Below are positions 4,856-48,763 of a stretch of DNA of 64,000 nucleotides, piece after piece; the first letter of the stretch is position 1, and each line of letters opens with the position of its first letter. A program made the translations under genes and the position numbers. Source of the DNA: Asanoa ferruginea (lineage in GTDB: Bacteria; Actinomycetota; Actinomycetes; Mycobacteriales; Micromonosporaceae); NCBI RefSeq assembly GCF_003387075.1, contig NZ_QUMQ01000001.1, forward strand, positions 4,278,001-4,342,000. The letters are read 5' to 3'. The notes beneath the pieces were generated by a model, which did not search any database, was not told where the DNA came from, and saw nothing but the letters and a program-made list of their open reading frames with translations.

Positions 4856-4901
4856 TTTTGCTCACACGGGTTTCACGGACTGTCGGGCAGGGTGACTAAA
4901 C

Positions 4902-6781: not shown

Positions 6782-6813
6782 TCGCGGCGGCGCCGGCTGG
6801 CACGGTGGCCGCC

Positions 6814-7200
6814 ATGACCAACCGCATCCATCACCTCAACATCGCCTGCGCCGACCCCTACGAGCTCGCGGGCTGGTGGTCGCAGGTGCTGCTCGGCTAC
6901 CAGCGCTCCGAAGAAGACTTTCCGGGCGATCCGGAAGCTTTGCTGATCGCACCCGACGGCGCCGGGCCGGGCGTGCTGTTCTGCAGGGTCGACGACCGGG
7001 CCACCCGAAGCCGGCTCCACTTCGACGTCCAGCCGGCCGACCACACCCGCGACGAAGAGGTCGAGCGCCTGCTCGCGATCGGCGCCGCCCTGGTCAGCGA
7101 CCAGCGCCGGCCCGACGGCAAGGGCTGGGTCGTGCTGGCCGATCCGGAGGGCAACGAGTTCTGCGTCGAGCGCAGCGCCGCCGAGCGCGTGGGCGGATGA
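6814..7200 (+). CDS. VOC-superfamily (glyoxalase-like) protein
   Basis: A 128-residue single-unit vicinal-oxygen-chelate protein. The paired beta-alpha-beta modules are visible: IHHLNIACADPYELAGWWSQVL at the start and GWVVLADPEGNEFCVE at the end, the latter being the usual metal-site strand of glyoxalase-like domains. The likely metal ligands are H6 or H7, H75 (RLHFDV) and the final Glu. The substrate cannot be told from sequence; such proteins range from dioxygenases to antibiotic-binding proteins. It begins 32 nt after the kinase gene on the same strand. Confidence 0.85.
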   Translation: MTNRIHHLNIACADPYELAGWWSQVLLGYQRSEEDFPGDPEALLIAPDGAGPGVLFCRVDDRATRSRLHFDVQPADHTRDEEVERLLAIGAALVSDQRRPDGKGWVVLADPEGNEFCVERSAAERVGG

Positions 7201-7311
7201 ATCGCGTCACGATAAGGCCACGCGAGTGTCCCGTGGACGACGCAGGGCACACCTGACGTGCATCGGGTCGCTACGATCCGGCAGTCCACTGAGTATTTCC
7301 TGGGAGCCGTG

Positions 7312-8328
7312 ATGTCCGACCCCTACGCCCAGCCACCGTCTTACGGCTCCGAGCCTCCTTACGGCCAGCAGCCCCCACCGCAGCCGCCGCAGCAGCCGCA
7401 ATACGGGCAGCCCTACGGTGAGCAGCCCCCGCAGCAGCCGGGCTACGGGCAGACCTACGGGTCGCCGCAGCCGGGCACCTACGGCCAGCCGCCGCAGCAG
7501 CCTGGCTACGGTGACTACGGCCAGCAGCAGCCGCCGCAGCAGCCGGGTTACGGCGACTACGGGCAGCAGCCCGCCTCGGGCGCGCCCTATGGGCAGCAGC
7601 CCTCGTCGCCGGCGCCCTACGGCCAGCAGCCCCCGGCCTATGGCCAGCCCGCCTACGGTCAGCCGCCGCAGCAGCCGACCTACGGTGAGCAGCCGTTCGG
7701 TGGGCCGCCGATGCCGCCGACCGCGCCGCCGAAGAAGAAGAGCCGCGCCGGCCGGATCGTGCTGATCGTGCTCGCCGTCGTGCTGGTGCTCTGCGTCGGT
7801 GGTGGCGTCGCCATCTGGCAGATCGTCAAAGACCCGGTGAAGGAGGTCGTGGCGGCGGCCAACACCCGCGTCGTCGCGCCCGACACCCTGGGCGGCAAGA
7901 AGAAGATCACCGACCCCGAGCTGCAGAGCGCGGTCAACGACATGGACAAGTCGCTCAACGCCGACGTGCCCAACGCGACCAGCACGGCCGCCGCGTTCTA
8001 CGGCGACATCGCGAAGCAGGACCTGGTCATGCTGGTGGCCGTCTCCGGCGTGATCGAAGACCCGGTGAAGGAGCTCAACGACACCTTCACCAGCATGAAC
8101 GCCAACGGCACCACGGTGAAGAACATCAAGGACGTGGAGGCCGGCCCGCTGGGCGGCCAGGCCAAGTGCGGTGACGGCGAGATCGCCGACGCCGGTGCGG
8201 CCCTGCCGCTGGGCATCTGCGCCTGGTCCGACAAGGGCAGCGTGGGCATGATCGGCGTCTACAACGTCAAGGGCGCCGAGGCCTACAAGAACTTCCTGGC
8301 CATGCGTGCCGAGGTCGAGAAGCAGTAA
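7312..8328 (+). CDS. Membrane protein with P/Q/Y/G-rich cytoplasmic tail
   Basis: A 338-residue protein. The first 140 residues are a low-complexity tail built from irregular repeats of PPQQPGYG and PYGQQP, then a basic stretch (KKKSRAGR), one membrane helix ([21 protein letters not shown], about 147-167) and a folded outward domain of about 170 residues without a family I recognise. This arrangement is common in actinobacterial surface proteins. The ATG at 7312 is preferred over the GTG at 7258 because GGGAG lies 8 nt upstream. The gene ends just before a strong bidirectional terminator. Confidence 0.8.
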
Positions 8329-8342
8329 GCAGCGAGCGCGAA

Positions 8343-8373
8343 AAGGCCCCCGGGGATCTTCCCCGGGGGCCTT
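8343..8373. terminator. Bidirectional rho-independent terminator
   Basis: Perfect hairpin with 14-bp arms AAGGCCCCCGGGGA / TCCCCGGGGGCCTT and a TCT loop. It lies between convergent genes (the membrane protein ending at 8328 and fadB ending at 8379) and its A- and T-flanked arms suit termination in both directions. Confidence 0.9.
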
Positions 8374-8378
8374 CCTCG

Positions 8379-10388
8379 TTAGATGCGGCCGGTCGCGGCC
8401 AGATAGGGCGTGATGCCGCCCAGGTGGAACGGCCAGCCGGCGCCGAGGATCAGGCACAGGTCGATGTCTTTCGCGTCGGCGACGACGCCGTCGGCCAGCA
8501 TCAGCTTGACCTCGTCGGCAACGGCGTCGAGCGCGTTGTCGCGGACCTGCTCGGCGGTCAGCGGTGCGTCGCCGACCTGGAGCAGCGCGACGGTCTCCGG
8601 GTCGATCGCGCCTTCCCGGTCGGTGAGTGACCGGCCGCTCTCGACGATCCGGGCCAGGTTGGCGCTGACCCCGAACCGGTCCGGGAACGCCGTGTGCATC
8701 GTCTCCGACACGTGCAGCGCGACCGCCGGCCCGACCATCGTGAGCAGGGCGAGCGGCCGCATCGGCAGGCCCAGCGGGTCGAGCGCGCTGTTGGCCACCT
8801 CGACCGGGGTGCCGGCGTCGATGGCCGCGTAGATCTCGCCGAGGAAGCGGGTGAGCAGCCGGTTGACCACGAACGACGGTGCGTCCTTGACCAGCACGCA
8901 CGACTTCTTGAGCTGCTTGCCGATCGCGAACGCGGTGGCCAGCGTCGGGTCGTCGGTCTTGCCGGCCCGGACGATCTCGACCAGCGGCATCACCGACACC
9001 GGGTTGAAGAAGTGGAACCCGACGACCCGCTCCGGGTGGTCGAGTTCGGCGGCCATCTCGGTGATCGACAGCGAGGAGGTGTTGGTCGCCAGCACCGCCT
9101 CCGGCGAGACGACCTTCTCGATCTCGGCGAACACCTGCTTCTTCACGTCGAGGTTCTCGAAGACCGCCTCGATGACGAAGTCCGCGTCGGCGAACGCCGC
9201 CTTGTCGACCGAGCCGCTGACCAGCCCGCGCAGCTTGGCCGCCGTACCCTCGTCGATCCGGCCTTTCCCGCGAAGCTTGTCGATCTCGCCGTGCACGTAG
9301 GCGACGCCCTTGTCGACGCGGGCCTGGTCGAGGTCGGTGAGCACGACCGGGACCTCGAGCCGGCGGGCGAACAGCAGCGCCATCTGGCCGGCCATCAGCC
9401 CGGCGCCGACGACGCCGACCTTGGTGATGTCGCGGGCCAGCGCGGCCGCCGGTGCGCCGGCCGGCCGCTTCGCCCGACGCTGCACGAGGTCGAACGCGTA
9501 GAGGCTGTTGCGCAGTTGCGGGCCGGTGACCAGGTCGCCGAGCGCCTCGTCTTCCGCGGCGGTGCCGGCGGCGAAGTCGGCGTCCTTGGCCAGCGCCAGC
9601 AACTCGAGCGCCTTCTCGGCGGACGCCACCGCGCCGTGCAGCCGCTCGTCGAGTTGCATCTTCGCGAAGTAGAGAACGCCGTCCCACATGTCGCGGTCGA
9701 TCTCGGGGCGCTCGACCGTGATCTCGCCGGCCACCACGCCGGCGGCCCACTCCAGCGAGCGCTCCAGGAAGTCGGCCGGCTCCAGCAGCACGTCGGCGAT
9801 GCCCAACTCGCGGGCCTGCGGCGGGCGCAGCGTCTTCTGCGTCAGCGGGTTCTGGATGATCACCTGGGCGGCCGGCGCGATGCCGATCAGGTTGGGCAGC
9901 AACTGGGTGCCACCCCACGCCGGCACCAGGCCGAGGGAGACCTCGGGCAGCGCCAGGGCGCCGGCACCCGACGAGAGCGTCCGGTAGTGACAGTGCAGCG
10001 CCACCTCCAGCCCGCCACCCATCGCGACGCCGTTGACGAACGCGAACGTCGGAACGCTGGAAGCGCGCAGCCGGTTGAACACCCGGTGTCCGAGTCGGCC
10101 CAGCTCGACCGCCTGCTCGCGCGACGAGATCATCGGCATTCCGGTGATGTCGGCGCCGACCGAGAAGATGAACGGCTTGCCGGTGATCGCGATGAACGCC
10201 GGCTCCAGCGCCAGGGCCGCGGTGATCGCCTCGTCGAGGCTGGCCAGCCCGGCCGGCCCGAAGCTGTTGGGCTTGGTGTGGTCGAGCCCGTTGTCGAGCG
10301 TGATGAGGGCGGCCTTGCGCCCCTTGACGGTGACGGCGCGGACCAGCGCGCGGGTCACGACCTCGTTCGGGTTGGTCAGAGTCGTCAC
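8379..10388 (-). CDS. fadB: Multifunctional fatty-acid oxidation protein (enoyl-CoA hydratase / 3-hydroxyacyl-CoA dehydrogenase)
   Basis: A 669-residue fusion that carries out the second and third steps of beta-oxidation. Residues 1-300 are an enoyl-CoA hydratase domain with the CoA oxyanion-hole motif FSVGADITG (75-83) and both general acid-base glutamates, E128 (GGGLEVA) and E149 (LPEVSLG). Residues 321-660 are the NAD-dependent dehydrogenase: nucleotide site GAGLMAGQ (328-335), ATNTSSLSI and the catalytic histidine H459 in GFHFFNPVSVMP. The GTG start overlaps the thiolase stop by 4 nt (GTGA), so the two subunits are made in step. The name FadB is used for the architecture; chain-length preference is unknown. 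Confidence 0.94.
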   Translation of the reverse strand: MTTLTNPNEVVTRALVRAVTVKGRKAALITLDNGLDHTKPNSFGPAGLASLDEAITAALALEPAFIAITGKPFIFSVGADITGMPMISSREQAVELGRLGHRVFNRLRASSVPTFAFVNGVAMGGGLEVALHCHYRTLSSGAGALALPEVSLGLVPAWGGTQLLPNLIGIAPAAQVIIQNPLTQKTLRPPQARELGIADVLLEPADFLERSLEWAAGVVAGEITVERPEIDRDMWDGVLYFAKMQLDERLHGAVASAEKALELLALAKDADFAAGTAAEDEALGDLVTGPQLRNSLYAFDLVQRRAKRPAGAPAAALARDITKVGVVGAGLMAGQMALLFARRLEVPVVLTDLDQARVDKGVAYVHGEIDKLRGKGRIDEGTAAKLRGLVSGSVDKAAFADADFVIEAVFENLDVKKQVFAEIEKVVSPEAVLATNTSSLSITEMAAELDHPERVVGFHFFNPVSVMPLVEIVRAGKTDDPTLATAFAIGKQLKKSCVLVKDAPSFVVNRLLTRFLGEIYAAIDAGTPVEVANSALDPLGLPMRPLALLTMVGPAVALHVSETMHTAFPDRFGVSANLARIVESGRSLTDREGAIDPETVALLQVGDAPLTAEQVRDNALDAVADEVKLMLADGVVADAKDIDLCLILGAGWPFHLGGITPYLAATGRI

Positions 10389-22218: not shown

Positions 22219-23124
22219 ATGACCCCCGAAGAGATCGTCGTACCCCCGGCTCTCGTCGAGGCCCAGGTTCGGTTCCGCGGTGACGCGGGCCGGGCCTGGG
22301 TCGACGGGGTGGCCAGCACCGCGGCGGAGTTTCTCGATCGCTGGCGGTTGCGCCGCGACGGGGCGCCGCGCAGTGGCATGGCCGGCCTCATCCTTCCGGT
22401 GATCACCGAAGACGGCACGCCCGCGGCGCTCAAGCTCCAGGACACCGACTGGGAGCACCCCGGCGAGGGCCTGGCCCTGCGCACCTGGGGCGGCGACGGC
22501 GCCGCGCGGCTGCTCCGCGAAGACCCACCAACCTGGACGCTGCTGATCGAGCGCCTCGACCCCGACCGCGACCTGAGGTCCGTGCCGGATGAGTCGGCCG
22601 TCCAGATCATCGCCGCGCTGCTCAACCGGCTCCACGCGCACACCGCGCCGCCCGGGATACCTCGGCTGGCCGACACCGCGGCGCGGATGATCGCCGACAC
22701 CCCGGCCGCCGCGGCCCTGCTGGCCGACCCGGCCGAGGGGCGCCTGATCCGGCGCTGGGCCGACATCCTGGCCGACGTCGCGGGCGAGGCCGGCGACCGG
22801 CTGCTGCACTGGGACCTGCACTACGAGAACGTGCTCGCCGGCGGACGCGAGCCGTGGCTGGCGATCGACCCGAAGCCGCTGGCCGGCGACCCGGGCTTCG
22901 AGATCTGCCCGGCACTGTGGAACCGGTGGGATGACGCGGCGCCGGAACAGACGATCCGGCGCCGGTTCGACGTCATGGTCGAAGCGCTCGGCCTCGACCG
23001 GCAGCGGGCGGTCGCCTGGACGGTCGGCCGTACCCTGCAAAACTCGATCTGGTCCGTCGAAGACGGCGACCGCGCCCTTGACCCGAGTCAGGTGACGATC
23101 GCCGCCGCCGTCATGCGGGGATGA
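22219..23124 (+). CDS. Aminoglycoside/hydroxyurea kinase family protein (APH(6)-like)
   Basis: A 301-residue phosphotransferase of the streptomycin 6-kinase type. The catalytic loop is [15 protein letters not shown] with Asp as base and Asn as metal ligand, and the DFG-like motif is [22 protein letters not shown] contains the ATP-binding lysine. Chromosomal members in soil actinobacteria may phosphorylate aminoglycosides or other small alcohols; resistance is possible but not shown. The last 14 nt overlap the convergent msrB gene. Confidence 0.85.
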
Positions 23125-28966: not shown

Positions 28967-29014
28967 ACTCCCAGTAGGCGGTGGTCAGGGCCGGTCCGGG
29001 CAGCCGGTGGGGCA

Positions 29015-29020
29015 TAGGGT
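29015..29020 (+). promoter_or_regulatory. -10 box, leaderless LigD-polymerase gene
   Basis: TAGGGT followed by 7 nt and the ATG at 29028. Confidence 0.5.
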
Positions 29021-29027
29021 CGACGGC

Positions 29028-30068
29028 ATGCCGTCGAAGAAGGCCGCCGCTGTCGAAGTCGAGGTCGCTGGGCACACCGTGCGGCTCAGCAGTCCCGACC
29101 GGGTGATGTTTCCCCGGGCCGGCTACACGAAGCAGGACGTGTTCGACTACTACCTGGCCGTCGGCGACGGCATCACGCGGGCGCTCGACCACCGCCCGAC
29201 CACGCTCCAGCGCTTCCCCGACGGGATCGACGGCGAGGCGTTCTACCAGAAGCGGCTGCCGGCCCGGGGCACCCCCGACTGGCTCAACGGCGCCGAGATC
29301 ACCTTCCCGAGCGGGCGCAAAGCGACCGAGCTCTGCCCGGTCGACCTCGCCCACGTCGCCTGGGCCGCGCAGATGAACACCGTCGTCTTCCACGCCTGGC
29401 CGGTGCGGGCCAAGGACGCCGACCACCCCGACGAGTTGCGGATCGACCTCGACCCGCAGCCGGGCACCGACTTCGGCGACGCGGCCGAGGCGGCCGGTGA
29501 GCTGCGTGCCGTGCTCGACGAGATCGGTGCGACCGGCTGGCCGAAGACGTCGGGCGGCCGGGGCGTGCACGTCTACCTGCGGATCCAGCCGCGGTGGACG
29601 TTCGTGGAGGTGCGTCGCGCGACGATCGCGCTGGCCCGGGCGCTCGAGCGGCGCCGGCCCGACCTGGTCACCACGAGTTGGTGGAAGGAGGAGCGGGGGG
29701 AGCGGGTGTTCGTCGACTTCAACCAGATGGCGCGCGATCGCACCATCGCGGCCGCCTACTCGCTGCGGGCCAACGCGCGGGCCACCGCCTCGACGCCGTT
29801 GACCTGGGCCGAGTTGCCTGACGTCGAGCCTGACGACTTCGACCTGCGTACCCTGCCGAAGCGGTTCGCCGAGATCGGTGACCCGCACGCCGGCATCAAC
29901 GACAACGCGTTCGACATCACGCCGCTGCTGGAGTGGTCGGCGGCCGACGAGCGCGACGGGCGCGGCGGCGACATGCCCTACCCGCCCGACCACCCGAAGA
30001 TGCCGGGCGAGCCGCCGCGGGTGCAGCCGAGCAAGAAGAACGCGGCCAACTGGAAAGACGACGCCTAG
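29028..30068 (+). CDS. Stand-alone LigD polymerase (primase-polymerase) domain
   Basis: A 346-residue archaeo-eukaryotic primase-type polymerase of the LigD family used in non-homologous end joining, where it fills gaps and adds ribonucleotides at broken ends. Visible marks: VMFPRAGYTKQDVFDYY, the metal-binding D140 and D142 in LRIDLDPQPG, SGGRGVHVYL, and the third acidic residue in RVFVDFNQMARD. It lacks ligase and phosphoesterase domains; a separate ligase gene lies at 32528-33649. No Ku gene is in the window. The last 4 nt overlap the convergent acetyltransferase gene (CTAG). Confidence 0.92.
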   Translation: MPSKKAAAVEVEVAGHTVRLSSPDRVMFPRAGYTKQDVFDYYLAVGDGITRALDHRPTTLQRFPDGIDGEAFYQKRLPARGTPDWLNGAEITFPSGRKATELCPVDLAHVAWAAQMNTVVFHAWPVRAKDADHPDELRIDLDPQPGTDFGDAAEAAGELRAVLDEIGATGWPKTSGGRGVHVYLRIQPRWTFVEVRRATIALARALERRRPDLVTTSWWKEERGERVFVDFNQMARDRTIAAAYSLRANARATASTPLTWAELPDVEPDDFDLRTLPKRFAEIGDPHAGINDNAFDITPLLEWSAADERDGRGGDMPYPPDHPKMPGEPPRVQPSKKNAANWKDDA

Positions 30069-34194: not shown

Positions 34195-35706
34195 CTAAAG
34201 GACGAAAGCGTCGGTCCAGAGTTGGCCCGAACGGCCGGACAGGGCATCGAGGAGGGCCACCGCCTGTTGGTCGGTCAGCGCGGCGACGAAGTCGACGATC
34301 GCCCGGCCGCGGGCCCGGGCGGCCCGGTCCGGCGTGCCCGCCGGCAGCTCGGCCTCGGCCAACTCGACCAGGTCGTGCAGGCGTTGCGGCAACCGGGCCT
34401 CCTCGGCCGGGTCGACGATCCAGGCGAGCAGCGCCTCGACCAGGGTGCCCAGCAGCCGGGCCTGGCCGCGCTGGTGCAGCGCCAGGTCGGGGCGGTCGAG
34501 CACGAACCGGTGGTGGATCAGCTTGAGCACCTGGACCTCGTGCCACTGCGGCCGGTCCAGCAGCACATAGCCGGAGCGGACGGCCGGGCTGTCGGTCAGG
34601 TGCACCGCGTCGACCAGCCGGCGGGTCCACCGGGCGGAGAACCGGGCGACGTATTGCTCGGCGGCCACCGAGCCGTCGAACGGGTCGGCCAGCAGCCCGT
34701 CGACCAGGTCGTGGCGGACCTGCTCGACCGCGCTGGCGAACGCGTCGTCGTCGCTGATCCAGCGGTCCCGGCGGTGCACCCGGCGGCGTAGCTTCTCGAT
34801 CGCCGCACCGGCCTGCCGGGCACTCGCGTCGAGCGCGTCGTCGGAGAGACCGCCGAGCCGCTTGTGCTCGCGCTGCCAGCCGAGCAACTCGGCCGCGACG
34901 GTGCCCTGCTGCAGCACGCCGACCCGGTGGAAGTCCTCGACGTCGTGGATGGCGTACGCGATGTCGTCAGCGGTGTCCATGATGGACGCCTCGACGGTCT
35001 GCTGCCAGTCGGGGATCCGGCCCACGAACGGCGCGCGGGCCTGGCGCAGGTCGTCGACCTCGGTCAAGTAGGCGCCGAACTTGGCCGACCCGCTGGACGG
35101 GTCCCAGTCGGGTGCCGAGGCGCCGCGCGGCGCCGGGTTCATCCGGCGGGGGTGCGGGTCCGGGTGGTCGAGCCGGGTCCACGGGTATTTGACGATCGCG
35201 GCCCGGACCGCGGCGGTCAGGTTGAGCCCGATGGTGGCCGCGCCGCGGATCTCGGTGCTGGTGACGATGCGGTAGGACTGCGCGTTGCCCTCGAAGCCGT
35301 CGGGCAGCCCCAGCCGCTCCCGGGCCAGCCGGTCGAGCACCGCCTCGCCGAGGTGGCCGAACGGCGGGTGGCCGAGGTCGTGGGCCAGCGCCGCCGCCTC
35401 GACCACGTCGGGGTCGCAGCCGCCGAGCTTGTCGAGCAGGGCCAGGTTGCCGGCGTCGGCCGTGAGCCGCTCGGCGATCGCCCGGGCCACCTGGGCCACC
35501 TTGAGGCTGTGGGTGAGCCGGTTGTGCACCAGCAGGCCGCTGCCGCCCGGGCTGATCACCTGGGTGACCCCGCCCAGCCGCGCGAAGAACGGTGACGTGA
35601 CGATCCGGTCGCGGTCGGCACGGAACGGGCTGGCGGCCAGGTCGCCCGGCGCGGTGCGCCCGGTGTCGAACAGCCGCCGGGCACGGGGATCGACCGGCTC
35701 CGTCAT
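34195..35706 (-). CDS. dgt: dGTP triphosphohydrolase-like protein (HD domain)
   Basis: A 503-residue HD-domain enzyme that hydrolyses dNTPs to nucleoside and triphosphate, controlling dNTP pools and mutation rate. The metal ligands are in HNRLTHSLKVAQ (H), AALAHDLGHPPFGH (HD) and SIMDTADDIAYAIHD (D). The arginine-rich start (RARRLFDTGR, FRADRDRI) is also typical. Length is normal. Minus-strand TAGCGT stands 6 nt before the ATG. Neighbouring genes for alkylation repair and end joining suit a genome-maintenance role. Confidence 0.92.
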   Translation of the reverse strand: MTEPVDPRARRLFDTGRTAPGDLAASPFRADRDRIVTSPFFARLGGVTQVISPGGSGLLVHNRLTHSLKVAQVARAIAERLTADAGNLALLDKLGGCDPDVVEAAALAHDLGHPPFGHLGEAVLDRLARERLGLPDGFEGNAQSYRIVTSTEIRGAATIGLNLTAAVRAAIVKYPWTRLDHPDPHPRRMNPAPRGASAPDWDPSSGSAKFGAYLTEVDDLRQARAPFVGRIPDWQQTVEASIMDTADDIAYAIHDVEDFHRVGVLQQGTVAAELLGWQREHKRLGGLSDDALDASARQAGAAIEKLRRRVHRRDRWISDDDAFASAVEQVRHDLVDGLLADPFDGSVAAEQYVARFSARWTRRLVDAVHLTDSPAVRSGYVLLDRPQWHEVQVLKLIHHRFVLDRPDLALHQRGQARLLGTLVEALLAWIVDPAEEARLPQRLHDLVELAEAELPAGTPDRAARARGRAIVDFVAALTDQQAVALLDALSGRSGQLWTDAFVL

Positions 35707-40248: not shown

Positions 40249-40794
40249 ATGCCCCGGCAGATCTTCCAGGTCAAGGTGACGCTGGCCGACGTGCAGCCCG
40301 AGGTGTGGCGCCGGGTGCAGTTGCCCGGCGCTTACACGCTCGACCGGGTGCACCGGGTGGTCCAGCTCGCGATGGGCTGGCAGAGCTTTCGCCTGCATTC
40401 GTTCGAGGTCGACGGCGTGCAATACGGCGAGCCCGACCCCGACGGCGAGCTCGCGCTGCGTGACGAGCTCGACGTGCGGCTCGACGCGGTCGCGCACAAG
40501 GGCACCCGGCTGCTCTACACCTACGACTTCGGCGACTGGTGGGAGCACGACCTGCTGGTGGAGGACGTGTTCGCCGCCGAGCCCGACGAGCGCTACCCGC
40601 TGTGTCTGGCCGGCGAGCGGGCCTGCCCGCCGGAAGACGTTGGCGGCGCGTTCGGCTACGCCGAGCTGCTGGTCGCGCTCCGTGATCCCGCGCACCCGCG
40701 GCATGCCGAGTTGGGCTCGTGGGCGGGCGGCGGGTTCGAGTCGGAGGCCTTCGACCCGGGGCGCGCCACGACACTGGTACGCCGCCTGACATAG
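40249..40794 (+). CDS. pRiA4b ORF-3-like protein
   Basis: A 181-residue protein of the plasmid pRiA4b ORF-3 family, function unknown. The family pattern is complete: QIFQVKVTLADVQPEVWRRVQLPG, YTYDFGDWWEHDLLVEDV, CLAGERACPPEDVGGAFGYAELLVALRDP. The family often occurs beside transposons or plasmids, but here it stands alone between chromosomal genes. A weak promoter-like pair (TTGATT, TACGGT, 19-nt spacer) precedes it. It ends 113 nt before the HerA-like gene on the same strand. Confidence 0.88.
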   Translation: MPRQIFQVKVTLADVQPEVWRRVQLPGAYTLDRVHRVVQLAMGWQSFRLHSFEVDGVQYGEPDPDGELALRDELDVRLDAVAHKGTRLLYTYDFGDWWEHDLLVEDVFAAEPDERYPLCLAGERACPPEDVGGAFGYAELLVALRDPAHPRHAELGSWAGGGFESEAFDPGRATTLVRRLT

Positions 40795-40808
40795 CCCCAC
40801 CAAAAGGA

Positions 40809-40823
40809 TGAAAGGCTCTTTCA
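40809..40823 (+). terminator. Small hairpin between pRiA4b-like gene and HerA-like operon
   Basis: TGAAAG-GCT-CTTTCA, perfect 6-bp arms with a T-rich 3' side. A weak terminator or a regulatory hairpin ahead of the repair operon. The rest of the 113-nt gap shows no gene and no clear promoter. Confidence 0.3.
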
Positions 40824-40907
40824 CCTCATCTCGCTCCGCCCCGCGCGTCGGCTGTGAGCTGGTCGTACTGATGTTGCAAGATGCGAGTCGTGGTATCGGT
40901 GGGAGCG

Positions 40908-42647
40908 ATGGGTGAGCAGAGTGCGGTCGGCCGGGTGCTGGGCACCTCCGACGCCACTCCGTTGCAGTTCTGGACGGCCGTCGCGCCGGGCAGCTACCTC
41001 CAGCTCGACGACGTCGTGGTGACCACCCGTGAGCTGCCCGACCGCCCGCCGGTGCGGATCGCCGGGGTGGTGACCCAGGTGCGCGCCCGCCACGAGGGCG
41101 CCGTCTTCGACTCCGACGTCTTCGCGATCGCCGACGGCACGCTCCCGGCCCAGGTGCAGGAGGCGGCCGAGATCAGCGTCACCCGGGTCGACCCGGAGTT
41201 CTACGTGCCGCCGGCACCGGGCGCCCTCGTGCACCGGGCCACCGGCGACCTGCGCGCCGCCGCGCTGCACTTCGACCGGATGGAACGGCAGATCCCGATG
41301 GGCACCGGGCGCGACGGCATCCCGGTCTTCCTCAACGCCGACTTCCTCGACGGCCAACGCGGCGCGCACGTGTCGATTTCCGGAATTTCCGGCGTGGCGA
41401 CCAAGACCAGCTTCGCGACGTTCCTGCTCTACTCGGTCTTCCACTCCGGGGCGCTGGGCGGCGACGCGGTCAACGCCAAGGCACTGATCTTCAACGTCAA
41501 GGGTGAAGACCTGCTCTTCCTCGACCACCCCAACGTCAAACTCGACGACAAGACCACCGCGGCGTACGCGGCCCTCGGCCTGCCGGCCAAGCCGTTCAGC
41601 GACGTCCGGGTCTACGCGCCGCCGAGGATGGGCGACGCGTCCGGCACGCCCGACGTCAGCAGCCGGCTGTCCGGCGTCGACAGCTTCTACTGGACGCTCG
41701 AAGAGTTCTGCCTCGGCTCGCTGCTGCCCTACGTGTTCGCCGACGCCGACGACGAGCGGCAGCAATACACGATGGTCGTGCACGCGGTCACCGCACACCT
41801 CGCCCGGCACGCGGTGCCGGCCGACGGCGGCGTCGCGATCGACGGCACCCGGCTGAGCAGCTACGCCGACCTGGCCGACTTCGTGGTCGCGCAACTCTCC
41901 GACGACGAGACCCGGTTCGCCTGGACGGGCAGTTCGGTCGGGCTGGGCACGGTCAACGCGTTCGCCCGCCGGCTGATCGCGAGCAAGCGCGACCTCGGCC
42001 GGCTGATCCGCGGCGACCTGGCCACCCGCCGGCCGCACCAGATCAACACCGACGAGAGCGCCCAGGTCACCGTCGTCGACCTGCACAACCTGCCCGACCG
42101 CGCGCAGCGGTTCGTGGTCGGCGTGACGCTCAAGAAAGAGTTCGAGCGCAAGGAGAAGAAGGGCACCGCCAAGCCGCTGCTCTTCGTCGTGCTCGACGAG
42201 CTCAACAAATACGCACCGCGCGAGGGCTCCTCCCCGATCAAGGAGGTGCTGCTCGACATCGCCGAGCGGGGCCGCTCGCTCGGCGTGATCCTGGTCGGCG
42301 CGCAGCAGACCGCCAGCGAGGTCGAGCGCCGCATCGTCACCAACTCGGCCGTCCGCGTCGTCGGCCGGCTCGACCCGGCCGAGGCGTCGCGCCCCGAATA
42401 CGGCTTCCTGCCGCCCGCGCAGCGGCAGCGGGTGCTGCTCGCCAAGCCGGGCACGATGTTCGTCAACCAGCCCGACATCCCGGTCCCGCTGTGCGTCGAG
42501 TTCCCGTTCCCGGCATGGGCGACCCGGCACTCCGAGGCCGGCGCCGCGCCGGCGGAGACGCTGCGCTCGATCACCCAGTCCGCCGATCCGTTCGCGGTGG
42601 TCGGCTCGCGGTCGGGCACGTTGTCCGACGACGACATCCCGTTCTAA
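40908..42647 (+). CDS. HerA-like hexameric ATPase/translocase
   Basis: A 579-residue P-loop ATPase of the HerA/FtsK clade: an N-terminal HAS-barrel-like domain (about 1-110), then the RecA-like core. The P-loop reads GISGVATKTS (159-168), one residue longer than the normal HerA loop and with Thr instead of Gly before the lysine. Walker B is LLFVVLDELNK with D430 and E431, and the C-terminal HerA motif is GAQQTASEVERRIVTNSAVRVVGRLD. HerA hexamers drive DNA into the NurA nuclease; here SbcD, SbcC and a NurA-like gene follow on the same strand, 11 nt and overlapping downstream, which supports that role. The ATG at 40908 follows GGTGGGAG; an ATG at 40881 is possible. Confidence 0.85.
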   Translation: MGEQSAVGRVLGTSDATPLQFWTAVAPGSYLQLDDVVVTTRELPDRPPVRIAGVVTQVRARHEGAVFDSDVFAIADGTLPAQVQEAAEISVTRVDPEFYVPPAPGALVHRATGDLRAAALHFDRMERQIPMGTGRDGIPVFLNADFLDGQRGAHVSISGISGVATKTSFATFLLYSVFHSGALGGDAVNAKALIFNVKGEDLLFLDHPNVKLDDKTTAAYAALGLPAKPFSDVRVYAPPRMGDASGTPDVSSRLSGVDSFYWTLEEFCLGSLLPYVFADADDERQQYTMVVHAVTAHLARHAVPADGGVAIDGTRLSSYADLADFVVAQLSDDETRFAWTGSSVGLGTVNAFARRLIASKRDLGRLIRGDLATRRPHQINTDESAQVTVVDLHNLPDRAQRFVVGVTLKKEFERKEKKGTAKPLLFVVLDELNKYAPREGSSPIKEVLLDIAERGRSLGVILVGAQQTASEVERRIVTNSAVRVVGRLDPAEASRPEYGFLPPAQRQRVLLAKPGTMFVNQPDIPVPLCVEFPFPAWATRHSEAGAAPAETLRSITQSADPFAVVGSRSGTLSDDDIPF

Positions 42648-42658
42648 GGGGGCGGCCC

Positions 42659-43804
42659 GTGCGCATCCTGCACACCTCCGACTGGCACGTCGGCAAGGTC
42701 CTCAAAGGACAGTCAAGGGCCGAGGAACACCTCGCGGTGCTCACCCAGGTGGTCGAGATCGCCCGGGCCGAGCAGCCCGACCTGGTCATCGTCGCCGGTG
42801 ACCTCTACGACACGGCGGCGCCTTCGCCGGAGTCGACCCGGCTGGTCACCCGCGCGCTGTCGGCCCTGCGCCGCACCGGCGCCGACGTCGTCGTGATCGG
42901 CGGCAACCACGACAACGGCGCCGCGCTCGACGCCCTGCGGCCGTGGTCCGACGCGGCCGGCATCACGCTGCGCGGCAGCGTCCGGGAAAACCCGGCCGAG
43001 CACGTCATCGACGGCACCACGGCGACGGGGGAGCGGTGGCGGCTGGTCGCCCTGCCGTTCCTGTCCCAGCGCTACGCGGTGCGGGCGATCGAGATGTATG
43101 ACCTGACCGCAGCCGAGGCCACCCAGACCTACGCCGACCACCTGTCGCGGCTGCTGGCCAAGCTGACCGAGGGCTTCGGCGAGCCGGGCGTGGTCAACCT
43201 GGTCACCGCCCACCTCACCGTGGTCGGCGCGAGCCAGGGCGGCGGTGAGCGCGAGGCGCAGACGGTGCTCGGCTACGCCGTCCCGGCGAATGTGTTCCCG
43301 ACCAGCACCCACTATGTGGCGCTCGGCCACCTGCACCGCGCGCAGACGGTGATCGGGCCGTGCCCGGTGCGCTACAGCGGCAGCCCGCTGGCGATCGACT
43401 TCGGCGAGGCGGAAAACGTGCCCGCTGTCACGGTCGTCGAGGTGAGCGTGGGGCAGGCGGCGAAGGTGCGCGAGGTGCCGGTGACCGTGGCGACCCAACT
43501 CCGCACCGTGCGCGGCGACCTGGCGCAGCTCGCGACGCTGAAGACCGGCGACGCCTGGCTGCGGGTGTTCGTCCGGGAGACTCCGCGGGCCGGCCTGCGC
43601 GAAGAGGTGCAGGAGCTGCTGCCCCGGGCGCTGGAGGTGCGGATCGATCCGGACATGGTGGCCAGCACCCCTGGGCCACGAGCGGAAGAACGCGCCGGGC
43701 GTACGCCGCGCGAGCTGTTCGCCGCCTATCTGGACAGCCGCGGCGTGACGGACACGGGTGTCCGTGAGTTGTTCGACGAGTTCTACGAGGAGGCTTCGGC
43801 GTGA
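42659..43804 (+). CDS. sbcD: DNA exonuclease SbcD (Mre11 homologue)
   Basis: A 381-residue metallophosphoesterase nuclease of the Mre11-Rad50 complex that trims DNA ends and hairpins. Phosphoesterase motifs: SDWHVGK (D8, H10), VIVAGDLYDTA (D48), GGNHDN (N83, H84, D85), a TAHLTVVG histidine and YVALGHLHRAQ with two histidines. A capping region and C-terminal helical Rad50-binding part follow. GTG start behind AAGGGGGCGG. The gene lies 11 nt after the HerA-like ATPase and 73 nt before sbcC. Confidence 0.96.
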   Translation: MRILHTSDWHVGKVLKGQSRAEEHLAVLTQVVEIARAEQPDLVIVAGDLYDTAAPSPESTRLVTRALSALRRTGADVVVIGGNHDNGAALDALRPWSDAAGITLRGSVRENPAEHVIDGTTATGERWRLVALPFLSQRYAVRAIEMYDLTAAEATQTYADHLSRLLAKLTEGFGEPGVVNLVTAHLTVVGASQGGGEREAQTVLGYAVPANVFPTSTHYVALGHLHRAQTVIGPCPVRYSGSPLAIDFGEAENVPAVTVVEVSVGQAAKVREVPVTVATQLRTVRGDLAQLATLKTGDAWLRVFVRETPRAGLREEVQELLPRALEVRIDPDMVASTPGPRAEERAGRTPRELFAAYLDSRGVTDTGVRELFDEFYEEASA

Positions 43805-43852
43805 GGGAGCTTGCGACCGAACCATTTGGCTCAGTAGGCCCGGGCTCACGCT

Positions 43853-43873
43853 CGACCTCGCGAAGCGAGGTTG
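43853..43873 (+). promoter_or_regulatory. Hairpin containing the sbcC ribosome binding site
   Basis: ACCTCGC-GAA-GCGAGGT, perfect 7-bp arms at 43855-43861 and 43865-43871, extendable by a G-T and a C-G pair. The only Shine-Dalgarno-like sequence of sbcC (GCGAGG, 7 nt before the GTG at 43878) is the 3' arm, so folding would block initiation. Confidence 0.55.
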
Positions 43874-43877
43874 CCGC

Positions 43878-46352
43878 GTGAGGCCGCTCAGGTTGGATAT
43901 GGCGGGGTTCACCGTCTTCCGCGACGAGACGACGGTCGACTTCACCGACGCTGACTTCTTCGCGCTGGTCGGGCCGACCGGTTCGGGCAAGTCGACCGTG
44001 CTCGACGCGATCTGCTTCGCCCTCTATGGCCAGGTGCCGCGGTGGGGGAGCAGCCGGGGCATCGCCAACGCCCTGTCGCCGTCGGCGACCGAGGCCCGGG
44101 TGCGGCTGGTGTTCGAGTCGGGCGGCGCGCGCTACGTCGCGACCCGGGTGGTCCGGCGTGACAGCCGGGGCAACGTGAAGACCGGCGGTGCCGGCCTGCA
44201 ACAGATGCCCGACAACTTCGACGTCTCCAAACTCGACACCGGGATGACTCCCGAAGACCTCGGCGACGTGCTCGCCGGCACGCCGGCCGAGATGGACGAG
44301 GCCATCCAGCACGCGGTCGGGCTGCCCTACGAGCAGTTCACCAGTTGCGTGCTGCTGCCGCAGGGCCAGTTCGCCGACTTCCTGCACGCCAAGCCGGCCA
44401 CCCGCCAACAGATCCTGGTCAACCTGCTCGGCCTGCACGTCTACGAAGACATCCAGAAGCGGGCCACCGCCCGGGCCCAGCAGGCCGACGCCGACCTGCG
44501 CGCGGTCGACCAGCTCCTGGCCGGCCTCGACGACACCTCCGACGAGGCGCTGGCCGGCGCGGTCGCCCGGGTCGACGCGATGCTGGCACTCGCCGCGCTG
44601 GTGGCCACGGTGGCACCGGAGTTGCAGCAGGCCCAGCGCGCGGCGACCGAGGCGGCGGCCGGGCTGACCGCGCTCGACGACGAGATCGCGCTGCTCGACC
44701 GGGTCCGCGCGCCGCGCGGCGTGGCGGCGCTGGCGTCCGCCGCAGCCGACGCGCGCGACGCGGCGGCCGCGGCTGTCGACGCCGTGACGGCCGCCGAAGA
44801 GCGCGAGGAGAAGCTGCGCGGCGAGCTGGCGGCCACCGGCGACCCGGCCGCACTGCGGCTGCTGTTGCGGGCCCACGAGGAGCACTCGTCGGTCACCGCC
44901 GAGGCCGCGTCCCTCCAGGAGGGACTGACGGCGGCCACCACGGAGCACCGGTCCGCCGCGGCGGCGCTGGAGAAGGCCCGCGCGGCGGCGCTGCGCACGG
45001 CGGCCGAGCTGGAGTCGGCCCGCCACGCCTACCAGGACGCGCAGGCCGCCGACCGGGCCGGCGCACTCCGGGTGCACCTGCACGCCGGCGCGCCCTGCCC
45101 GGTCTGTGAGCAGCCGGTCGTCTCGGTGCCCGCGGTCCCCGCGACCTCGGCCGTGCCCGCCGCCGAGAAGGCCGGGCACGCGGCCAAGGCCGCCGACGAG
45201 AAGGCGCAGGCCCAGGTGGCCGAGCGGGAGAAGGCGGCCCGCGCGCTCGAACGCACCCTCGACCGGGCCCGCGCCCAGCACGAGCAGCTCGCCTCCCGGC
45301 TGGCCGCGCTCGGCGCGCAGCTCGCCAACTCGCCGGGCGTCACGGCGCTGCGCCGCGAGCTGGAGACGCTGGCCGGGCTGCAGAAGTCGCTCGACGCGGC
45401 GGTCGCGGCGCTGAAGACCGCGCGGGAACAGGCCCGCACGGCCACCGCCGCCCGCAGCGCCGCCGAGCAGCGGCTCACCGCGGCCTGGCGGGAGTTCGAC
45501 GTGGCCCGCGACGCGGTCGCCCGGTTCGCTCCACCGGCCGCGTCCCGCGACGACCTGGCCGACTCGTGGTCGACCCTGGCCGACTGGTCCGCGACCGAGG
45601 TGGCCAGCCGGCGGTCGGCGCGCACCGACCTGGCGGCGAGCGCCGCCGACGCCGATGCCGCGGTCACCGCCGTGCGCGCGCGGCTCGACGCCGCGTTCGT
45701 CGACGCGGAGCAGCCGGCACCCGACGACCACGTGCGGGCGGCGACCGTGGCGGTCGAGCGGGCCACGGCCGCGCACCAGCGGGTCGAGGAGCGGCGGGCG
45801 CAGGCGCAGGGGCTGCTCGACAAGCGCACCGCCCACGAGCACGACAGCCAGGTGGCCAAGGCGCTCGCCGGCCACCTGCGGGCCAACAACTTCGAGCGCT
45901 GGCTGCTCGAAGAGGCGCTCGACCTGCTGGTCGAAGGGGCCTCGCGGATCCTGCGCGAGCTGTCCGCCGGGCAATACGACCTGGTCCACGAGAAGGGCGA
46001 GTTCTCGGTCGTCGACCATCACGACGCCGGGCTGCGCCGGGGTGTCCGCACGCTCTCCGGCGGCGAGACGTTCCAGGCGTCGCTGGCGCTCGCGCTGGCC
46101 CTGGCCGAGCAGCTCGCCGGGATGTCGACGTCGGCCGCCAGCCTCGAGTCGATCCTGCTCGACGAGGGCTTCGGCACGCTCGACGCGGCAACATTGGACA
46201 CGGTCGCGGCGACGCTGGAAGGCCTGGCCGCTCGCGGCGACCGGATGGTCGGCGTGGTCACCCACGTGCCGGCGCTGGCCGAGCGGGTGCCGGTGCGCTT
46301 CGACGTGACCAAGGACGCCCGCTCCGCCCACATCACCCGGAGCGGCATATGA
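43878..46352 (+). CDS. sbcC: DNA exonuclease subunit SbcC (Rad50 homologue)
   Basis: An 824-residue SMC-like ATPase, partner of SbcD. N-terminal P-loop GPTGSGKST (32-40), a Q-loop in CVLLPQGQFADFL, two long alanine-rich coiled-coil arms meeting at a zinc hook CPVC (about 407-410), and the C-terminal signature LSGGETFQASLALALALAEQL with Walker B ILLDEGFGTLD. All catalytic parts are intact, though the arms are shorter than in many SbcC proteins. Start is GTG 43878; the longer frame to 43758 overlaps sbcD and is not credible. Its stop overlaps the NurA-like gene start by 4 nt (ATGA). Confidence 0.96.
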   Translation: MRPLRLDMAGFTVFRDETTVDFTDADFFALVGPTGSGKSTVLDAICFALYGQVPRWGSSRGIANALSPSATEARVRLVFESGGARYVATRVVRRDSRGNVKTGGAGLQQMPDNFDVSKLDTGMTPEDLGDVLAGTPAEMDEAIQHAVGLPYEQFTSCVLLPQGQFADFLHAKPATRQQILVNLLGLHVYEDIQKRATARAQQADADLRAVDQLLAGLDDTSDEALAGAVARVDAMLALAALVATVAPELQQAQRAATEAAAGLTALDDEIALLDRVRAPRGVAALASAAADARDAAAAAVDAVTAAEEREEKLRGELAATGDPAALRLLLRAHEEHSSVTAEAASLQEGLTAATTEHRSAAAALEKARAAALRTAAELESARHAYQDAQAADRAGALRVHLHAGAPCPVCEQPVVSVPAVPATSAVPAAEKAGHAAKAADEKAQAQVAEREKAARALERTLDRARAQHEQLASRLAALGAQLANSPGVTALRRELETLAGLQKSLDAAVAALKTAREQARTATAARSAAEQRLTAAWREFDVARDAVARFAPPAASRDDLADSWSTLADWSATEVASRRSARTDLAASAADADAAVTAVRARLDAAFVDAEQPAPDDHVRAATVAVERATAAHQRVEERRAQAQGLLDKRTAHEHDSQVAKALAGHLRANNFERWLLEEALDLLVEGASRILRELSAGQYDLVHEKGEFSVVDHHDAGLRRGVRTLSGGETFQASLALALALAEQLAGMSTSAASLESILLDEGFGTLDAATLDTVAATLEGLAARGDRMVGVVTHVPALAERVPVRFDVTKDARSAHITRSGI

Positions 46353-47311
46353 CCGAATATTTCGTGGATAACTGGGATCCGGCCTACGGCGCCTCGTTCG
46401 AGGCGTCGTCGGGTCCGGCCAGCCAGAGCACCGCCCAGATCAACACCGACGTCGAGCTCCCGGCCGCGGCCTGGCGACCGCTGACGGCACCGCCGACAGT
46501 CCGCGCCCCCGACGTGGTGCTGCTGGTCGACGGCGTGCGCCGGATCGACGCGAGCCTGTGGACCCGGGAGGAAGACGGCACGTCGCATCCGGGCCTGGCG
46601 GCCTCCTACGCCGCCGGTGTGGTCCGTTGTGACCTGCGCGCCGGCGTGGCGTCACTGGCCGGTGCCCTGGTCGAACGAGGCCTGTTCACCACCTCGCCGA
46701 CCGCGGGCGACATCACGGCCGGCACGGTCCGCTACGGCGTGCGGCAGGTGGCCGGCGCACCCGACCCGGCCCGGCTGGTGCCGGCCGTGCAGGGCCCGCT
46801 GACCGCGCTGGAGGTGGCGGTCTCCACGGAGGTCCGCGGCGAGTCCGACGACCTGCTGGTCGTCGACGGCCCGCTCCGCAACCGCCGGCAACTGTCCCGC
46901 ACGATCGGCTACGTGAAGACCCAGCAGAGCCAGTATCTCGACGGTGCGCTGACCAAGGTGGTCACCGAGCTGCGCCCCGGCGAGCGGTCGCCGGTCTTCC
47001 TGATGGGCACGGCCTGGGGTGGCTACTCGTGGTATCTGCGGCTGCCCGGCCCGGCCGGCGCACCCTGGGCCGGCATCGTGCGCCTGGAGTGCACGACCGA
47101 GATGCCGTCGCAGGAGGCGATCGAGCTGGCCGACCTGTCCCTGCTCACCCTGCCCCGGTTCGCCTCGACCCCCTACAAGGACCCGCGCGCACCGCAGAAC
47201 CTGATCCCGATCGCCGGCCTCGAACGCCGCCTGCGCGGCCTACTCGGCGACTCCCGCCTGCTCCACCGCGCCCTGACCCTGGCCGCCGCCCGCAGCGCCG
47301 TTCCTGCCTGA
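46349..47311 (+). CDS. NurA-like 5'-3' nuclease
   Basis: A 320-residue protein with the NurA nuclease motifs in order: VLLVDGVRRIDASLW (D61), LVVDGPLRNRRQL (D173), TIGYVKTQQSQYL (K190), IVRLECTTEM (E247) and YKDPRAPQNLIPIAGLER near the end. In archaea NurA degrades the 5' strand with HerA after Mre11-Rad50 opens the end. The ATG overlaps the sbcC stop, so all four repair proteins appear to be made from one transcript. Divergence from archaeal NurA is large, so the call rests on motif order plus context. The last 72 nt overlap the convergent monooxygenase gene. Confidence 0.8.
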   Translation: MTEYFVDNWDPAYGASFEASSGPASQSTAQINTDVELPAAAWRPLTAPPTVRAPDVVLLVDGVRRIDASLWTREEDGTSHPGLAASYAAGVVRCDLRAGVASLAGALVERGLFTTSPTAGDITAGTVRYGVRQVAGAPDPARLVPAVQGPLTALEVAVSTEVRGESDDLLVVDGPLRNRRQLSRTIGYVKTQQSQYLDGALTKVVTELRPGERSPVFLMGTAWGGYSWYLRLPGPAGAPWAGIVRLECTTEMPSQEAIELADLSLLTLPRFASTPYKDPRAPQNLIPIAGLERRLRGLLGDSRLLHRALTLAAARSAVPA

Positions 47312-48763
47312 CCCGCTGAAGTGCAACTCCGGGTCGACGACGCGGTCGGCACGCAGGAGGCGCACGTCGGTGTCGTAGCTCATCGAGGTGAGCCACGGCA
47401 GCCGGTCGCCCTGGCGGGGTAGCTGGTCGATGACCCGGCGGATGTAGCCGGCGCCGAAGTCGAGGAACGGGCGGGTCGGCATCGCCGGGTCGGCGATCTC
47501 CGGGCGGCAGATCGCGTAGCCGTGCTTGTCCATGTGCGCCAGCAGCAGGCAGAAATGCTCGCAGAGCAGGCCGACCTTGAGCGTCCAGGACGAGTTGGTG
47601 TAACCCACGATGAACGCGAAATTGGGTACGCCGGAGAGCATCATGCCCTTGTAGGCCACCGTGTCGGCCGGGTTGACCACCGCACCGTCGACGGTCAGCG
47701 TGACGCCGCCCAGGGCCTGCACGTTGAGGCCGGTCGCGGTGACAATGATGTCGGCCGGCAGGTCGCGGCCGGAGCCCAGCCGGATGCCGTCTTCGGTGAA
47801 GGTCTCGATCCGGTCGGTGACCACGTCGGCGGTGCCGGCCCGGATCGCCTTGAACAGGTCGCCGTCGGGCACCAGGCACAACCGCTGGTCCCATGGGTCG
47901 TAGGGCGGGCGGAAGTGCTCGTCGACCGGATAGCCCTCGGGAAGCTGGCGGGCGTTGAGCCAGCGGATCAGCCGGCGCGCGCGTTCGGGATAACGCTTGC
48001 AGAAGCGCCAGATCCAGCGCTGCTGCGCGATGTTCTTCCGCCGCGTCCAGGCGTGCCCGCGGACCGGGCCGAGATGCTTCTTCAACGCGTTGCCGAGCGC
48101 GTCCTTGGTCGGCATCGACAGGATGTAGGTCGGGGTGCGTTGCAGCATCGTCACGTGCGCGGCGGTGCCCGCCATCGCCGGCACGATGGTGACCGCCGTC
48201 GCTCCACTCCCGACCACCACGACCCGCTTGCCTTGATAGTCAAGGTCTTCCGGCCAGTGCTGCGGGTGCACGATGGTGCCCTGGAAGCGGTCCCGGCCGG
48301 TGAACTCCGGCGTGAAGCCCTCGTCATAGCGGTAATAGCCGCCGGCCGCGAAAATCCAGTTGGCGGTGAGCGTGGTCGTCACGCCGGTGTCGACGCGTTC
48401 GACCACCACCGTCCACTGTGCCGTCTCGCTGTCGAACGCCGCGCCGCGTACCCTGTGGTGGTAGCGGATGTGTGGGTCCAGGCCGTTCTCCGTGGCGGTC
48501 TCGCGCAGATATTCGAGGATCCGCGGCGCGGAGGCGATGGCCTCCTCGTCGCGCCAGGGCTTGAACTCATAGCCAAACGTGTGCAGGTCGGAGTCTGACC
48601 GGGTGCCGGGATAGCGAAACAGGTCCCAGGTGCCGCCCGACGCGCCGCGGGCTTCGAGGATCGCGAAGCGCTTCGCCGGCAACTCCGTCTTGAGATAGCG
48701 CCCGGCGCCGATGCCGGAGATCCCGGCGCCGACGATCAGGACATCAAGGTGCTCGACCGCCAT
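47240..48763 (-). CDS. Baeyer-Villiger-type flavin monooxygenase (EthA-like)
   Basis: A 507-residue NAD(P)H- and FAD-dependent monooxygenase. Marks: FAD site GAGISGIGAGRYL, GGTWDLFRYPGTRSDSDLHTFGYEFKPW, the Baeyer-Villiger fingerprint FxGxxxHxxxW met by FQGTIVHPQHW (about 158-168), the NADPH site VVGSGATAVTIVP, and the second-half motif ATGLNVQALGG. It should insert oxygen into ketones or oxidise sulfur or nitrogen; some relatives activate thioamide drugs. The C-terminus, rich in Gly and Gln, overlaps the NurA-like gene by 72 nt. Divergent from a PucR-type regulator. Confidence 0.92.
   Translation of the reverse strand: MAVEHLDVLIVGAGISGIGAGRYLKTELPAKRFAILEARGASGGTWDLFRYPGTRSDSDLHTFGYEFKPWRDEEAIASAPRILEYLRETATENGLDPHIRYHHRVRGAAFDSETAQWTVVVERVDTGVTTTLTANWIFAAGGYYRYDEGFTPEFTGRDRFQGTIVHPQHWPEDLDYQGKRVVVVGSGATAVTIVPAMAGTAAHVTMLQRTPTYILSMPTKDALGNALKKHLGPVRGHAWTRRKNIAQQRWIWRFCKRYPERARRLIRWLNARQLPEGYPVDEHFRPPYDPWDQRLCLVPDGDLFKAIRAGTADVVTDRIETFTEDGIRLGSGRDLPADIIVTATGLNVQALGGVTLTVDGAVVNPADTVAYKGMMLSGVPNFAFIVGYTNSSWTLKVGLLCEHFCLLLAHMDKHGYAICRPEIADPAMPTRPFLDFGAGYIRRVIDQLPRQGDRLPWLTSMSYDTDVRLLRADRVVDPELHFSGSGRNGAAGGGQGQGAVEQAGVAE

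Follow-up and report, generated by a model that had tools for sequence, protein, structure and literature searches.

A likely DNA-end resection operon in Asanoa ferruginea that encodes Deinococcus-type HerA and NurA together with SbcCD

What is the work of a HerA-family translocase, an SbcCD pair and a NurA nuclease that are encoded in a single string on an actinobacterial chromosome? For archaea, a string that combines these four functions has been reported, the herA-mre11-rad50-nurA operon (PMC4351679, PMC2288612). We analyzed a window of 64,000 nucleotides (nt), positions 4,278,001–4,342,000 of the 9.07-Mb one-contig genome of Asanoa ferruginea, in which herA, sbcD, sbcC and nurA are four consecutive genes on the + strand (40908–47311 of the window). 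On the evidence of sequences and structure models, the string is likely to be a bacterial DNA-end resection operon, in which HerA-NurA of the Deinococcus type is encoded together with SbcCD.

Gene layout and identity

The string consists of the following features:

herA, 40908–42647, + strand: HerA-family hexameric DNA translocase of the Deinococcus type (profile, AlphaFold model and Foldseek)
sbcD, 42659–43804, + strand: Mre11-type nuclease (TIGR00619, Pfam Metallophos and SbcD_C)
small repeat insert with a 26-codon open reading frame (ORF), 43801–43881, + strand (copies in the genome; presence or absence in Asanoa relatives)
sbcC, 43878–46352, + strand: Rad50-type ATPase with a CPVC zinc hook (TIGR00618, AAA_23 and SbcC_Walker_B)
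nurA, 46349–47311, + strand: Deinococcus-type NurA nuclease (AlphaFold model and Foldseek, profile)

A preliminary description of this locus, made from the sequence alone, gave four co-directional ORFs for a HerA-like ATPase, SbcD, SbcC and NurA, separated by gaps of 11 nt (herA–sbcD) and 73 nt (sbcD–sbcC) and joined by a 4-nt overlap (sbcC–nurA); the ORF reading, in which the overlap is ATGA, and the family matches agree with it. An in-frame ATG at 40881 is a possible alternative start for herA.

A profile of 32 relatives places the first gene product firmly in the HerA family, as proposed, matching Deinococcus radiodurans HerA at 5.3e-198, with the next solved chain at 3.8e-5. The AlphaFold model (predicted local distance difference test, pLDDT, 88.0) is matched by Foldseek to 7wrw (1e-66, 47% identity), and archaeal HerA structures come next in the list at 12–15% identity to the window HerA. 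On its own, Pfam recognizes no HerA domain in this protein; the Pfam HAS-barrel domain is matched by 2/32 relatives and not by the window protein, while the fold match to 7wrw runs over nearly the whole chain. The P-loop, GISGVATKT, is without the usual glycine before the lysine, a trait common to Deinococcus (GISGVATKTS), and residues G159, G162, K166 and T167 are present in 32/32 relatives. The D. radiodurans HerA residues reported as active-site or mutated positions (PMC9960219), K175, T176, K217, D220, D487, E488, R495, R513 and R552, correspond to K166, T167, K198, D201, D430, E431, R438, R456 and R495 in the window. Those of the ATPase class (K175, T176, D220, D487 and E488 in D. radiodurans; K166, T167, D201, D430 and E431 here) are kept in 32/32 relatives. 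In the translocation class (R495 and R552 in D. radiodurans), R438 is kept in 31/32 and R495 in 30/32, with two gaps.

The identity of the last gene is less direct. The profile check on NurA, set beforehand as one of the points on which the proposal could fail, gave a divided answer: the Pfam family PF09376 reaches only E 0.045 and 13.7 bits against the window protein, below the curated cut-off of 21 bits, but a profile of 30 wider relatives searched against PDB sequences matches the D. radiodurans NurA of 7f6d at 7.8e-54 and Thermotoga TM1739 at 2.3e-20. PF09376 finds 0 matches in the whole genome, and 11/30 relatives of the window NurA match it (E up to 0.01). The AlphaFold model, built from an alignment of 24 relatives (mean pLDDT 86.3; predicted template modelling score, pTM, 0.84), has as its best Foldseek match the NurA chain of 7f6d, the D. 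radiodurans HerA-NurA complex (5.5e-18, 27% identity), in agreement with the proposed fold; Thermotoga TM1739 (1zup, 5e-14) ranks second and TdpAB (8wfd, 1.6e-5) is a much weaker third. We therefore accept the gene as nurA despite the Pfam score, since fold and alignment profile reverse it; a reading of the locus as lacking NurA, taken from Pfam alone, is overturned by the agreement of fold, profile and gene linkage. A PADLOC search with NurA returned 0 families.

The motif residues D61, D173, K190 and E247 singled out in the preliminary description are invariant in 30/30 relatives, as are E155 and R280. By a hand count on the profile alignment, D61, K190 and R280 correspond to D. radiodurans D53, K201 and R309, and mutation of any one of these is reported to abolish cutting (PMC9960219). 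W9, kept in 28/30 relatives, is probably D. radiodurans W8, judging from position alone. As aligned, the residues on which the Deinococcus proteins depend for ATP hydrolysis, for translocation and for cutting are all retained in the window HerA and NurA.

SbcD and SbcC have all of the defining parts of SbcCD, namely the SbcD phosphoesterase domain, the SbcC ATPase halves and the zinc hook (CPVC, residues 407–410), and by their model matches both are of bacterial type. SbcD matches TIGR00619 above its cut-off (1e-54), Metallophos at 1.7e-13 and SbcD_C at 1.7e-06, with the best archaeal Mre11 model at 4.1e-14. SbcC matches TIGR00618 at 2.8e-80 (270.6 bits, below the cut-off of 478.5), AAA_23 at 1.6e-21 and SbcC_Walker_B at 1.9e-10, with the best archaeal Rad50 model at 2.3e-15.

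The four genes are under purifying selection. By a simple counting method, in which synonymous sites may be near saturation, the ratio of nonsynonymous to synonymous substitution (dN/dS) against Asanoa ishikariensis is 0.14 for HerA, 0.19 for SbcD, 0.18 for SbcC and 0.12 for NurA; against Plantactinospora, a comparison covering three of the proteins, it is 0.26 for HerA, 0.37 for SbcD and 0.38 for NurA. The named relatives closest to the genome are Asanoa species (NurA 92% identical). A sigma-70-like scan of 40500–47600 found no promoter, a result that weighs little in a high-GC actinobacterium, and a terminator scan was also uninformative.

The 73-nt gap between sbcD and sbcC is occupied by the small repeat (43801–43881), whose 26-codon ORF overlaps both neighbors by GTGA, its GTG with the sbcD stop and its TGA with the sbcC start. 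Other copies in the genome are 88, 84 and 79% identical over 74–81 nt, and there are two shorter ones. Two Asanoa relatives (L033, L034) carry the repeat, and two others (L031, L032) have a 4-nt sbcD–sbcC overlap in its place. It resembles the MIRU elements of mycobacteria, whose insertion sites are overlapping stop-start codons.

Distribution and linkage of the four genes

NurA relatives are found in 39 of 61 genomes of the window's relatives, comprising 36/37 from its family and 3/24 from the rest of the order; the one family genome without a match is 80% complete. Among the family, species of Micromonospora and Salinispora carry the HerA-SbcD-SbcC-NurA string. Of 396 Actinomycetota genomes sampled evenly across the phylum, 74 contain NurA, of which 2 are among the 38 of the window's class (both from its family) and 72 belong to 20 families outside the class. 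The preliminary description was right that the full quartet stands together in a mesophile, but the peculiarity that it saw in this does not survive such counts. Strong HerA matches (E 1e-67 or better) occur in 77/396 genomes, including all 74 with NurA; in the other three (G128, G268, G332) NurA is perhaps missing through draft gaps. At a threshold of 0.001, any HerA match is found in 141/396 genomes, 64 of them weaker than the strong class. Many of these weaker matches fall in one family (f32) and represent a divergent second HerA, matched in two pieces at E about 1e-20 to 1e-37; this NurA has no match in the f32 genomes that carry it. In G155 and G410, which belong to the same genus, HerA is on one contig and NurA on another.

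The linkage claimed in the preliminary description recurs in two sets of loci more often than chance would allow. In the first (n=80), HerA>SbcD>SbcC>NurA is co-directional at 73 loci, and the other seven begin at a contig end. In the second (n=60), all four genes are co-directional at 52 loci, 33 with the same order and 19 with NurA>HerA>SbcD>SbcC. The HerA frame is broken at one of the 33 (L160). Fewer genes are seen at eight loci of the second set, three of which lie at a contig end (L163, L186, L200).

A HerA tree built from 38 rows separates the two gene orders by a single change (support 95/98; seen in 94% of 200 bootstrap trees), and the tree is consistent for the window's family (five family rows and the window). 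The root is at the midpoint, the rows from phages and plasmids sit on long branches, D. radiodurans is not among the rows, and the NurA-first group includes rows without a seen SbcCD (L191, L192, L228). Because the NurA-first order is also that of the cyanobacterial and Chloroflexota plasmid records, the simplest reading of the tree is that nurA would have moved once, from first to last position, in the window's lineage.

The quartet is also found on plasmids. The first 531 residues of the window HerA match 6 of 72,556 plasmid records; tblastn finds NurA in four of these, and profiles find all four genes, co-directional, in 6/6. HerA>SbcD>SbcC>NurA is the order on a linear plasmid of Streptomyces and in a Nonomuraea record of chromosome size, and NurA>HerA>SbcD>SbcC that on four plasmids, three from cyanobacteria and one from a Chloroflexota member. 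Matches in the Aulosira and Chlorohelix records are weaker (NurA 88–89 bits, SbcD 75–78, SbcC 89–99). The Streptomyces quartet (L223, NZ_CP134205.1 408754–434340) adjoins a divergent ImmA/IrrE metallopeptidase gene and lies beside TIGR02678/2679/2680 and DUF2397 genes, a Wadjet-like set. Upstream of the Chlorohelix quartet (L227) there is again an ImmA/IrrE gene. HerA is matched in 2 of 50,697 phage records and on four IMG/VR contigs, three of which have a weak upstream NurA match (16–42 bits); SbcC is absent from the stretch examined on all four.

Resection and the alternatives

A role in DNA-end processing, as first proposed, is predicted from the retained residues and from the fold and profile matches to D. 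radiodurans HerA-NurA. In that species, HerA is reported to thread duplex DNA from an end, and the 5′ strand to be cut by NurA as translocation goes on (PMC9960219). By the same scheme, SbcCD would bind a double-strand end and open or clean it where it is blocked or hairpinned; the HerA hexamer would thread the duplex from its end; and NurA, bound as a dimer to the HAS-barrel face, would split the duplex and, as translocation proceeds, cut the 5′ strand, so that a 3′ tail is left on which RecA can act. SbcCD is placed first in this scheme because of its linkage to HerA-NurA, by analogy with archaea, where Mre11 is reported to interact with HerA (PMC2288612). The whole would work beside AdnAB.

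The same genome carries an AdnAB-like pair at another place, in which a gene of the AdnA kind (UvrD and PDDEXK domains) precedes one of the AdnB kind; the best PDB match for the pair is 7sjr_A (605 bits), from mycobacterial AdnAB. AdnB-like genes (E <= 1e-100, a cut-off too strict outside the class) are found in 35/38 class genomes, against 2/38 for this NurA. The suggestion that the machinery might be alternative or additional to AdnAB can therefore be narrowed: replacement of AdnAB by HerA-NurA in the window's family is rejected in view of the AdnA-AdnB pair here and the AdnB-like genes across the class, and HerA-NurA is an addition. The AdnB-like gene itself (L126, about 4882–8500; genome 3254500–3266500) has a helicase half, with a PD-(D/E)XK-like stretch in the neighboring frame; this seems to be a frameshift or an assembly error.

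The surroundings of the operon had been described as a repair cluster of glycosylases, ligase and dGTPase. This holds only in part: a Pfam scan of 40 neighboring ORFs of the window found a dGTPase-like protein and a LigD primase-polymerase, both upstream of the operon, but none with DNA glycosylase or DNA ligase domains. Three of the neighbors are:

29007–30068, + strand: protein with a LigD primase-polymerase domain (1e-88)
34195–35706, − strand: dGTPase-like protein with HD and HD_assoc domains (Pfam)
22219–23124: aminoglycoside/hydroxyurea kinase family protein (APH_6_hur, 1.1e-42)

Several observations weigh against a joint resection operon. Five loci of the second set (L168, L170, L191, L192, L211) lack between one and three genes of the set in the fetched stretch although no contig end accounts for it, and the herA–sbcD gap exceeds 300 nt, up to 4 kb, at 11 of the 33 HerA-first loci. 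In Marinitoga camini virus 1, HerA follows a NurA gene and no SbcCD lies in the 13 kb seen. Sites resembling those of LexA and PafBC, scanned 5′ of herA as signs of SOS-type control, are found at 1/72 and 0/72 loci, respectively, and not in the window. A 2026 study of Thermococcus HerA-NurA is reported to doubt resection and to suggest an antiviral role (PMC12977600), and nurA and herA reportedly add little to the radioresistance of D. radiodurans (PMC4663267).

It is a real possibility, if short of an even one, that HerA-NurA and SbcCD are co-regulated only and act without contact, the one on free ends and the other on hairpins or protein-blocked ends. The D. radiodurans pair is reported to resect alone (PMC9960219) and to be unlinked to the Mre11/Rad50 homologues (PMC8708640), and some actinobacterial genomes have HerA or NurA away from sbcDC; yet the four genes recur together, in two orders, across Actinomycetota, Cyanobacteriota and Chloroflexota, and the archaeal Mre11-HerA interaction (PMC2288612) also speaks for contact. 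A defence system, in which HerA-NurA with SbcCD degrades foreign phage or plasmid DNA like other HerA complexes, appears improbable. HerA is antiviral with Sir2 or DUF4297, and such a role has been suggested for HerA-NurA (PMC12977600). Plasmid copies exist, one of them beside the TIGR02678/2679/2680 and DUF2397 genes; PADLOC links SbcC to mad3 (7.6e-29) and HerA to defence HerA models (2.3e-7); and TdpAB is a weak fold neighbor of NurA (8wfd, 1.6e-5). Unlike patchy defence genes, however, the set is present in 36/37 family genomes with a family-consistent HerA tree, the operon includes no defence effector and neither a Sir2 nor a DUF4297 gene, and NCBIfam HerA_antiphage_2 gives E 0.0046 and 15.8 of 850 bits, far below cut-off. 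Least credible by a wide margin of belief is lateral acquisition of an archaeal operon, to which the shared string of functions in archaea (PMC4351679, PMC2288612) would point. We reject it, as HerA is 47% identical to that of Deinococcus and 12–15% to the archaeal structures, and the match of SbcD and SbcC is much better to bacterial than to archaeal models.

Beyond the resection operon as such, a bolder reading is offered with considerable reserve. The set may be an old and partly mobile NurA-HerA-SbcD-SbcC cassette in which SbcCD passes broken ends to HerA-NurA by direct contact, so that bacteria would have a four-protein equivalent of the archaeal machine; nurA would have moved to last place once in one Actinomycetota lineage, and bacteria with nurA and herA only, such as Deinococcus, would have lost the link. 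The tie of bacterial HerA-NurA to SbcCD was said in PMC4663267 to have "remained to be uncovered". Culturable mesophiles that carry both the quartet and AdnAB are a place to test this tie, and resection against defence.

Comparison with known systems

The set had been called archaeal-type, a label that does not fit its parts: HerA is of the Deinococcus kind, and SbcD matches its bacterial model at 1e-54 against 4.1e-14 for the archaeal. To judge from these matches, it is a Deinococcus-type NurA-HerA with a bacterial SbcCD in an archaeal-like arrangement. The likeness to the operon of Sulfolobus and Thermococcus lies in four functions in one co-directional string, whereas the window proteins are of bacterial type. 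D. radiodurans NurA-HerA (7F6D, 7WRW, 7WRX) shares the HerA type and P-loop, the NurA fold and profile, and the catalytic and translocation residues, but is described in PMC8708640 as unlinked to the Mre11/Rad50 homologues, while the window has sbcD and sbcC in the same string.

AdnAB, AddAB and RecBCD are UvrD-type helicase-nucleases that probably serve the same task, the making of 3′ tails at double-strand breaks. Sir2-HerA, DUF4297-HerA and TdpAB likewise combine a HerA-family ring with a partner enzyme but have other effectors; the Sir2 and DUF4297 HerA proteins are 12–16% identical to the window HerA, TdpB matches NurA weakly, and there is no SbcCD in the listed structures.

Actinobacteria are named among the holders of NurA and HerA in PMC8708640. 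We found no description of the quartet in Actinomycetota, Cyanobacteriota or Chloroflexota in a search of an open-licence library, and some of the strings may well appear in Iyer 2004. The machine is of a known kind; its distribution is wider and more coherent than we found described. Its nearest precedent is Oceanithermus profundus, in which a bacterial HerA (hepA) with sbcD and sbcC downstream has been in print since 2017 and was read as recruitment of SbcCD in that species (PMC5448004). The set described here extends to three further phyla or parts of them, with nurA last in the window's lineage, which argues that the Oceanithermus quartet belongs to a more widespread bacterial arrangement and is not a private recruitment.

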